Origin: Ectothiorhodospiraceae bacterium | GTDB taxonomy: Bacteria; Pseudomonadota; Gammaproteobacteria; Nitrococcales; Aquisalimonadaceae | Reading direction: 5' to 3' | Length of the DNA: 44,653 nt | NCBI GenBank assembly: GCA_007125985.1 | Contig: SLCE01000046.1 | Span: 1 to 44,653 of the forward strand | In this document: positions 37,378 through 40,449 of the stretch, one piece after another | How positions within the stretch are numbered: position 1 is the stretch's first letter | How the letters are laid out: every line of letters begins with the position of its first letter | The notes under the pieces: generated by a model | What the model saw: the letters and a program-made list of their open reading frames with translations, nothing else | The model's database searches: none | What the model was told of the DNA's origin: nothing | Position numbers and translations under genes: made by a program

Positions 37378-37393
37378 CTGTTCAAATAAACAG
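37378..37393 (+). promoter_or_regulatory. LexA operator (SOS box)
   Basis: CTGTTCAAATAAACAG matches the gammaproteobacterial SOS box CTGT-N8-ACAG perfectly. It lies 9 bp before the lexA ATG and just downstream of its -10 box. It predicts damage-inducible transcription of lexA and the imuA-imuB genes behind it. Confidence 0.92.
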
Positions 37394-38089: not shown

Positions 38090-38932
38090 ATGAACGACGC
38101 ACTCGAGCAACTATTGCAGGAACCGGCGATCTGGCGCGCCGGTGACAACGGGCTCCCCTGGGCAGGACACATTGCCAGCGGGTTCGCCGAACTGGATGCT
38201 GCGCTCCCCGGTGGCGGTTGGCCCGACAGCGCACTGACCGAACTGCTGCACGACCAGCATGGCATTGGTGAGCTGCGCCTGTTCATGCCTGCCCTGGCCC
38301 GCCTGAGTCGCGCCGGGCGCTGGATCGCGCTGATTGCCCCGCCCCATATTCCTTACGCACCCGCCCTTGCGGCCCAGGGCGTGGACCTTTCTCGCATACT
38401 CCTGGTGCACCCACGCCGACAGCAGGATGCCCTCTGGGCCCTGGAACAGGCGTTGCGTTCCGGGACCTGTGCCGCGGTGCTCGCCTGGCCCGGCAGCAAC
38501 ACTACGGCACAGCAGCTCCGGCGACTGCAACTGGCTGCGGAAGCCGGACAAAGCTGGGGGGTACTGTTCCGCGGCAGCGCCTGCGCCGAGCAGGCCTCCC
38601 CCTCCGCACTGCGGCTGCACCTGCAGACAGGGGACAGCGAACTGGCCCGGCTCAAGCTGATCAAGTGCCGGGGCGCCCTGACACGGCAAAGCATACAGCT
38701 TGACCTGGAGAACCCGCGCACGCGCGCACTTCCGATTCGTCCATCCACCCCGGCTCCTGCGGCTCCGACCGGGCTCACCGGACATTCCCGCTGGCAACAG
38801 CGGCCACAACCAGCCCGCCCGCAGCCGGATCCTCAACCCCAGCTACCCTTGCCGCTGGGCAGCGCGCCGGCCCCCGGTGGCGGCGATCCACAGTGGCTAC
38901 GCCTGGTGCACCACCGGCACGAACGCTGCTGA
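38090..38932 (+). CDS. imuA: Translesion synthesis accessory protein ImuA (SulA/RecA-like)
   Basis: ImuA partners ImuB in the SOS-mutagenesis cassette of many bacteria. The product is 280 aa. The core (about 25-210) resembles the RecA-like SulA/ImuA fold, with GFAELDAALPGGGWPDSALTELL typical of the family. No intact Walker A is present. The C-terminal 70 residues are Pro/Gln-rich and probably disordered. They hold QLPLPL (251-256), which fits the hexapeptide sliding-clamp motif QLxLxL. It lies behind lexA with no promoter of its own visible, so it is probably SOS-induced by read-through. Confidence 0.88.
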   Translation: MNDALEQLLQEPAIWRAGDNGLPWAGHIASGFAELDAALPGGGWPDSALTELLHDQHGIGELRLFMPALARLSRAGRWIALIAPPHIPYAPALAAQGVDLSRILLVHPRRQQDALWALEQALRSGTCAAVLAWPGSNTTAQQLRRLQLAAEAGQSWGVLFRGSACAEQASPSALRLHLQTGDSELARLKLIKCRGALTRQSIQLDLENPRTRALPIRPSTPAPAAPTGLTGHSRWQQRPQPARPQPDPQPQLPLPLGSAPAPGGGDPQWLRLVHHRHERC

Positions 38933-39021: not shown

Positions 39022-40449
39022 ATGCTCTGGTTAGCATTGCATCTGCCGCGCTTTCCCCTGGAGGCCCGGAGCCGGGCCCAGCAGGCACCCGGCCCCTGCG
39101 CCCTGGTGGAGGCCGGGCGCATCACCCATGTCAACACAGTAGCCGCGGAAGCCGGCATTCAGGCCGGCCTGGGTCTGAGTGCTGCCCGATCACTGGCGCC
39201 CGACCTGCAGCTACTGGAACGCCATCCCGCCAGTGAAGCGCAAGCCCTCCGGCAACTGGCCGACTGGGCACTGCAGTTCACCAGCCAGGTCAGCCTCCAA
39301 CCACCGGACACGTTGTTACTGGAACTGGGCGGCAGCCTGCGCCTGTTCGGCGGTCTGGACACACTGATGACCATGCTGACCCAGGCGCTGGATCAGCTCG
39401 GCTACAGTCATCAGCAGGGCACCGCGCCCACACCCGTGGCTGCCTGGCTTCTGGCCCGGCACGGAGACCCGGAGCCGGTACGGGACCGGAGCGCACTACC
39501 GCAGCGCCTTGCTCCGTTACCCTGCATTCTGTTGCCCTTGGACACAGCCCGGCAACGGGCCCTTGCGGGCCTGGGCATTCGCACCCTGGGTGACCTGATG
39601 GCATTGCCATCGAAAGACCTGGGCAGGCGGCTGGGTCGCACCCCCATGCAACTGCTGGAACAGGCCTTGGGCCAGCGCCCCGACCTCCGCCCGCAGCACC
39701 AGCCCGCACGGCATTATCACGGCCATTTGGAGTTCCCCGCCGCCGCGCATTCCAGCAAGTCCATCCTGTTCGCCCTGCAACGCCTGCTGCGGGAACTGGC
39801 CGGGCTGCTGCATGGCCTGGAAGCGGGCGTGCAGCAATTGGAGCTGGAACTGGCGCACCATCGCCGCAACCCCACCCGGCTACGCCCCGGGCTGATGCGG
39901 CCCAGCCGTTCGACAAAGCGTTGGCTCATGGTGTGCCGGGAACGCCTGGAGCGCCAGGCCCTGCCTGCTCCTGTCATCGCCATCGACTTGCGCGCCGACA
40001 CGCTACTGCCCCTGGCACCGGAAGCGCTGGCGCTGCTGGACGCAGAAGTGCAGGAAACCCCGGACCGCTGGCTGGAGCTTACCGAACGGCTGAAGGCCCG
40101 CTTGGGGGGGCGGACCATTTGCGGGCTCGGCACCCGTGCCGAACACCGCCCGGAACAGGCCTGGCAGACACTGCCACCGGAACAGAGCCCACAACAGCGG
40201 GCCAACCCGCACCGCCCATTGTGGTTGTTGAAACAGGCCGAGCCCCTGGTGGTACGGCAAGGCCAGCCTTGCTGGAACGGCCCGCTCGTGCTCTGCCAGG
40301 GCCCGGAACGCATCGAAACCGGCTGGTGGGATGGGCACGACATCAGTCGTGATTACTATCAGGCCCGAGCTGCCAATGGCGCCCTGTTGTGGGTCTATCG
40401 CGACCGCAGGCCACCTCGCGGCTGGTATCTGCATGGCTTTTTCGGATAA
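39022..40449 (+). CDS. imuB: ImuB, catalytically inactive Y-family DNA polymerase-like protein
   Basis: ImuB is a Y-family polymerase homologue that acts as an adaptor in SOS mutagenesis. The product is 475 aa. The fold is recognisable, but the first acidic motif reads LALHLPRFPLEA in place of a D-x-D-x-F/Y pattern. The S(I/L)DE motif reads LLLELGGSLRLFGG, so catalytic Asp residues are missing, as in known ImuB proteins. A helix-hairpin-helix region (LAGLGIRTLGDLMALPSKDLGRRLG) and a little-finger domain follow. The C-terminal WYLHGFFG end is typical. No dnaE2 (imuC) follows. The ribosome site is weak and a hairpin lies upstream. Confidence 0.92.
   Translation: MLWLALHLPRFPLEARSRAQQAPGPCALVEAGRITHVNTVAAEAGIQAGLGLSAARSLAPDLQLLERHPASEAQALRQLADWALQFTSQVSLQPPDTLLLELGGSLRLFGGLDTLMTMLTQALDQLGYSHQQGTAPTPVAAWLLARHGDPEPVRDRSALPQRLAPLPCILLPLDTARQRALAGLGIRTLGDLMALPSKDLGRRLGRTPMQLLEQALGQRPDLRPQHQPARHYHGHLEFPAAAHSSKSILFALQRLLRELAGLLHGLEAGVQQLELELAHHRRNPTRLRPGLMRPSRSTKRWLMVCRERLERQALPAPVIAIDLRADTLLPLAPEALALLDAEVQETPDRWLELTERLKARLGGRTICGLGTRAEHRPEQAWQTLPPEQSPQQRANPHRPLWLLKQAEPLVVRQGQPCWNGPLVLCQGPERIETGWWDGHDISRDYYQARAANGALLWVYRDRRPPRGWYLHGFFG

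Follow-up and report, generated by a model that had tools for sequence, protein, structure and literature searches.

A conserved clamp-type motif in the C-terminal tail of ImuA, a proposed tether of the mutasome to the sliding clamp

Introduction

A described counterpart of the locus reported here is the mutasome of mycobacteria. In that system ImuB is reported to bind the sliding clamp through the motif 352-QLPLWG-357, which is required for mutagenesis (PMC10421592), and ImuA is held to a RecA-NT-like stretch of ImuB (PMC11791113). According to PMC3901139, Warner 2010 found no clamp binding by the mycobacterial ImuA′, a result that counts against a clamp contact by ImuA. The accessible text of PMC11791113 and PMC3901139 calls the role of ImuA in the mutasome unclear. 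In gamma-proteobacteria, a clamp motif of the form xLPLF is reported for DnaE2 (PMC3919608). A clamp contact outside the mutasome is that of E. coli Hda, which binds via QLSLPL (PMC3836487); this peptide is reported to be a tight clamp binder, with a KD of 0.38 micromolar when placed in epsilon (PMC12309361).

We analyzed a stretch of 44,653 nucleotides, here called the window, that makes up contig SLCE01000046.1 of an Ectothiorhodospiraceae bacterium (GTDB order Nitrococcales, family Aquisalimonadaceae). The window carries the gene order lexA-imuA-imuB, with imuB 90 bases downstream of imuA. With the mycobacterial system it has in common the complex, the motif class, and SOS-induced mutagenesis; the difference is that the motif of Mycobacterium is on ImuB (PMC10421592, PMC11791113, as far as their accessible text goes), whereas the window has ALALL on ImuB and QLPLPL on ImuA. 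The ImuA1/ImuB1/DnaE2A group of Proteobacteria (PMC12926913) shares with the window an ImuA lacking Walker motifs, an ImuB, and a DnaE2. The window differs in the added ImuA tail with its clamp-type motif, of which the accessible part of that paper makes no mention. Likewise, no clamp motif on ImuA appears in the accessible parts of PMC6511836, PMC12926913, PMC10421592, PMC11791113, PMC3901139, and PMC3919608, and none is reported in the titles and abstract openings of the open-access literature; supplements and subscription papers lie outside this scope and may hold an earlier mention. Both the motif class and the complex are known; the unexpected part is the subunit that carries the motif.

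The lexA-imuA-imuB Locus

The features of the locus are collected in Table 1. The assignment of ImuA is based on a profile match well over the curated cut-off of 150 bits. The protein also gives weak matches to RecA and SulA profiles, and its RecA-like fold is assigned by sequence; the Walker A (P-loop) pattern GxxxxGK[ST] is absent. The name ImuB rests on the position of the gene after imuA and on the ImuBs of relatives. No dnaE2 follows imuB, which raised the idea of a mutasome lacking DnaE2. This idea is ruled out, as DnaE2 is encoded on another contig of the same genome (G000:C33:10415-13480, 1489 bits).

Table 1. Features of the locus, with positions in the window
Feature	Position	Strand	Basis and remarks
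LexA-box-like CTGTTCAAATAAACAG	37378..37393	+	Exact match to CTGTN8ACAG, 9 bases before the lexA ATG
lexA, 206 aa	37403..38023	+	TIGR00498, 237.7 bits
imuA, 280 aa, RecA-like, without P-loop	38090..38932	+	NF033429, 220 bits; P-loop pattern check
ImuA C-terminal tail, residues 216-280, Pro/Gln-rich, modelled as unstructured	38735..38929	+	AlphaFold2 model; diverges between relatives
QLPLPL, proposed sliding-clamp-binding hexapeptide, ImuA residues 251-256	38840..38857	+	Translation of ORF 38090-38932
imuB, 475 aa, Y-family-like protein	39022..40449	+	Pfam IMS, 45.6 bits
ImuB residues 272-277, QLELEL	39835..39852	+	Fits hexapeptide pattern; seems to belong to a conserved strand
ImuB residues 335-339, ALALL, usual clamp-motif place	40024..40038	+	No Q, no aromatic end; other ImuBs end in LF

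The LexA-box-like sequence upstream of lexA is likely a LexA site. It is its location before lexA, rather than its mere occurrence, that supports this assignment: the window has exact matches at two places. The second, CTGTCAATCACCACAG, lies at window:14036-14051, and about one match per such window may be due to chance.

A first reading of the window, made from the sequence alone, had called attention to QLPLPL in ImuA, to its fit to the clamp-binding hexapeptide consensus QLxLxL, and to its likeness to the motif of Hda. Translation places the peptide exactly where that reading had put it, encoded by CAGCTACCCTTGCCGCTG, and the match to the consensus is plain. The reading had also described the tail as Pro/Gln-rich and probably disordered. 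The composition is as described, and an AlphaFold2 model built from a 14-row alignment (mean pLDDT 70.9) ends its last strand at residues 211-215 and has neither strand nor helix thereafter; pLDDT is below 50 at residues 218-239, 254-260, and 262-280, that is, over most of the tail. The motif is thus modelled in an accessible, unstructured setting, low pLDDT being itself a prediction.

The likeness to Hda is borne out by the QLSLPL sequence given in PMC3836487 and PMC12309361. It extends to the window's own genome, which encodes an Hda with the segment AQLPLNI, that is, the motif QLPLNI. Among the 22 Hda sequences read, of 30 loci, 21 have QLxLxh or QMxLxh. The E. coli Hda motif resembles that of the window's ImuA in having Q at position 1, L at positions 2 and 4, P at position 5, L at position 6, and a place in a flexible terminus. 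The two differ in setting: Hda is an AAA+ protein with an N-terminal motif, and in ImuA the motif is toward the C-terminal end of a RecA-like mutasome subunit.

A single DnaN is encoded by the window's genome (367.5 bits). It shares with solved clamps the segments ATDGHRLAM, FPDY, and YVVMPMRL, which we take to line the clamp pocket.

Conservation of the ImuA Tail Motif

Conservation in relatives had been named beforehand as a point on which the proposal could fail. ImuA was found in all 14 genomes of the window's GTDB-type family, and each of the 14 proteins carries Q[LM]xLPL, in the variants QLPLPL, QMNLPL, QLDLPL, QMRLPL, QMQLPL, and QLQLPL. In the alignment of these sequences, Q251, L254, P255, and L256 are the sole invariant columns after P215, and the tail around the motif varies in length and sequence. 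The motif peptide is identical in L003, L004, and L005, although five of its six codons differ.

In the order, 43 of 54 genomes gave an ImuA match. One of these, a 37-residue match in G397, was dropped before counting, leaving 42. QxxLx[LM] follows the core in 37 of the 42, where shuffling predicts 1.53. The strict form Q[LMI]xLxL is found in 27, all among the 31 proteins having tails of at least 25 residues (0.07 expected). The ImuAs of the order are related, and so 37 of 42 does not amount to 37 independent events. The constraint follows the clamp-motif pattern: positions 1, 4, and 6 are fixed, position 2 is mostly L or M, and position 3 is free. From the motif to the C-terminus there are 0 to 34 residues, and in the Halorhodospira-like L172-L175 the motif is the very end of the protein. 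Shuffling of the window tail by itself yields Q[LMI]xLxL in 0.38% of trials (frequency 0.0038). That single tail is modest evidence; at the level of sequence, it is the conservation that makes the evidence for the motif strong. On the basis of shuffling and conservation, we reject chance or composition as the source of the motif.

Five of the 42 ImuAs are without the motif: L154, L176, L161, L169, and L170. L154, the imuA of G382, has no motif in frame, but another frame after the stop reads PQLELPLA, likely the result of a frameshift or sequencing error. L176 reaches the end of its contig and is counted as lacking the motif. The remaining three belong to a Spiribacter-like genus. This genus also supplies ten of the 37 motif bearers, with shortened tails that read Q[QHK]xLPL in nine cases and QMPLAM in one; an example is the end TQQPLPLEG, two residues from the stop. 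Since these matches follow the core almost directly, they are rated ambiguous and may simply represent its end. When the Spiribacter-like genus is left out, the motif is present in 27 of 29 ImuAs, the failures being L154 and L176.

Outside the order the picture is different. A survey of the class covered 115 loci, the 22 weakest match rows having been left out. Either a hexapeptide or a pentapeptide clamp pattern was found at one of these loci (QASLF in L121) against 1.07 expected, and the strict Q[LMI]xLxL at none. In the comparison of the 42 with the 115, only the hexapeptide counts for order members, and either pattern counts for the others, which favors the outside set. Among 20 distant ImuA-like loci outside the class, taken from many matches, no clamp-type motif was found; two of them, L406 and L413, are partial profile matches in which the core is poorly placed. 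A wider spread of the ImuA motif beyond the order is thus not upheld by the class survey or by the distant loci.

The L121 protein (from G151) ends MKQASLFPESTY. In a relative of the same family, L333 (G420), a C-terminal fragment of ImuA ends GDRQLKLL, and L327 and L328, also of that family, have no such end. It is possible that the L121 and L333 ends represent an independent gain of a clamp-type motif.

A quick tree built from 144 cores requires at least five changes in the history of the motif. This is compatible with a single early gain, close to the root of the order, followed by losses within the Spiribacter-like genus, and with L121 having gained its motif separately. Some deep branches of the tree lack resolution. 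The order does not come out as a single clade, although the tree remains compatible with its being one.

Clamp Sites on ImuB and DnaE2

The usual place of the ImuB clamp site, before the RecA-NT-like stretch, was set by inference from the mycobacterial layout in the accessible text of PMC11791113. A clear clamp motif in ImuB had been named by the sequence-only reading as something that would tell against its proposal. The window ImuB has ALALL at this place, where the little-finger region ends, and does not show QxxL[FW] there. The QLELEL peptide of ImuB is not conserved: relatives read QLDLRL, RLELLL, TISLRL, or ELTLRL at this position, and the Q is not kept among them. An ImuB site clear enough to render the ImuA motif superfluous is rejected on these grounds.

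Over a broader sample, the ImuB site has an aromatic end in 68 of 87 proteins from outside the order versus 6 of 27 order members outside the Spiribacter-like genus, and in none of 8 Spiribacter-like ImuBs. The order counts comprise 25 plus 2 (L348 and L354) tail-bearing loci and 8 of 13 Spiribacter-like ones; repeated entries and loci that lacked a usable ImuB were excluded throughout. Five Spiribacter-like duplicates (L043-L047) likewise lack the aromatic end. Q is present in 9 of the 68 outside ImuBs having the aromatic motif. Strict complementarity, with the motif on either ImuA or ImuB, is ruled out by six order members that have both, namely L009, L153, and L172-L175.

DnaE2 follows the same trend. 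The clamp site of the window's DnaE2 is GAPLL. Among the 30 order DnaE2s read, from 38 genomes over the cut-off, Q is found in none and F in three, and most read xxPLL. Outside the order, QxxLF is found in 31 of 44, mostly relatives of Pseudomonas and Xanthomonadales; a further 46 loci had no recognizable region. The Pseudomonas-type DnaE2 reads QLPLF, which resembles the peptide of the window's ImuA, in contrast to the order's own DnaE2s.

Taken together, the sequences suggest that the order pairs a strong ImuA motif with mostly weakened sites on ImuB and DnaE2. Because the genomes compared are related, the trend on ImuB and DnaE2 is a correlation that may reflect no more than one or a few events. 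The xxLL patterns of ImuB and DnaE2 may still bind the clamp weakly.

Some genomes of the order lack parts of the system. Neither an ImuA match nor a DnaE2 above the cut-off was found in G387, G388, G391, G394, G395, and G399-G403; G402 and G403 give partial ImuB-like matches. G002 has ImuA and ImuB, with no DnaE2 above the family cut-off.

A Proposed Role for the ImuA Tail and Its Alternatives

We infer clamp binding, recruitment, and a division of labor between ImuA and ImuB, as follows. ImuA, RecA-like and without a P-loop, would join ImuB via the RecA-NT-like stretch of the latter, as in mycobacteria. The flexible 65-residue ImuA tail would dock its QLPLPL in DnaN's hydrophobic pocket, much as the N-terminal QLSLPL of Hda does, and in this way, once SOS is induced, would recruit ImuA-ImuB-DnaE2 to the clamp or keep it there. 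The tether would supplement the weak motifs of ImuB and DnaE2 and, in many members of the order, probably largely replace them. That ImuA binds the sliding clamp through its tail motif, tethering the mutasome, is given a probability of roughly 0.77. The observations on which the proposal is built are the motif, its conservation, the tail modelled as unstructured, the weak sites elsewhere in the complex, and a genome that encodes DnaN, Hda, and DnaE2.

How the work is divided is less firm. The sequence-only reading had suggested that the clamp job was transferred to ImuA. The weak ImuB site of the window speaks for this part of the suggestion; the six members with both motifs, and DnaE2 as a third possible contact, speak against it. 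Another reading grants the binding and denies the transfer: the ImuA motif would be an extra contact that adds avidity, with ImuB, and DnaE2 as well, remaining the main contacts. We regard this as a real possibility, somewhat short of even odds. L172-L175, L153, and L009 fit it, since their ImuA motif is accompanied by an ImuB motif with an aromatic residue (SGQLF, for instance), and sites without Q may suffice for ImuB, as most outside ImuBs with the aromatic motif have none. In the window, on the other hand, both ALALL and GAPLL are without Q or an aromatic residue, and the ImuA site is the best consensus match of the complex. At the other extreme, an order-wide shift of the clamp tether from ImuB and DnaE2 to ImuA, active even where both have been lost, seems doubtful to us.

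The loss of both partners is illustrated by G383, a genome reckoned 100% complete. It has lexA-imuA (L177:2280-3657) flanked by RelA/SpoT-like and GalU-like genes, both named by eye; its ImuA, from an open frame of 252 aa, ends GQLDLPLA. A search for ImuB at E 0.001 gave no match in this genome, nor did any DnaE2 reach the cut-off. If it is no remnant, this ImuA would meet the clamp without the remaining mutasome. Together with G002 and with the report that Myxococcus ImuA binds RecA (PMC11791113), G383 would fit a role in which, in some members, ImuA acts on the clamp without ImuB and DnaE2, e.g., as a clamp-borne RecA antagonist. We consider such a role improbable: the G383 protein is diverged (186 bits) and may be decaying, draft genomes can miss genes, and the sister genome, G384, is cut at a contig end. 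G383 bears also on the proposal that the peptide serves another partner, such as ImuB-C, the PHP domain of DnaE2, or RecA, its likeness to clamp motifs being convergent. In its favor, an extended ImuA loop is reported to contribute to the DnaE2-ImuB interface in a mycobacterial model (PMC12926913). Another partner is nevertheless unlikely, as the pattern of positions agrees with the clamp consensus and with the genome's own Hda, and G383 keeps the motif although ImuB and DnaE2 were not found there. Chance, or functionless inheritance in a low-complexity Pro/Gln-rich tail, is very improbable. All carriers of the order do share ancestry, and a single tail produces the pattern by chance at about 0.4%; yet while tails change in length and sequence and codons turn over, Q, L, P/G/A, and L stay, far above the shuffled expectation. 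A clamp contact by the ImuA tail is thus the reading we prefer.

Implications

The conserved clamp-type motif would give ImuA a testable job. It would also mean that lineages can differ in which subunit of one complex makes the clamp contact. The order itself offers a natural experiment, with members that have the motif on ImuA, on ImuB, or on both, and one that has ImuA alone.
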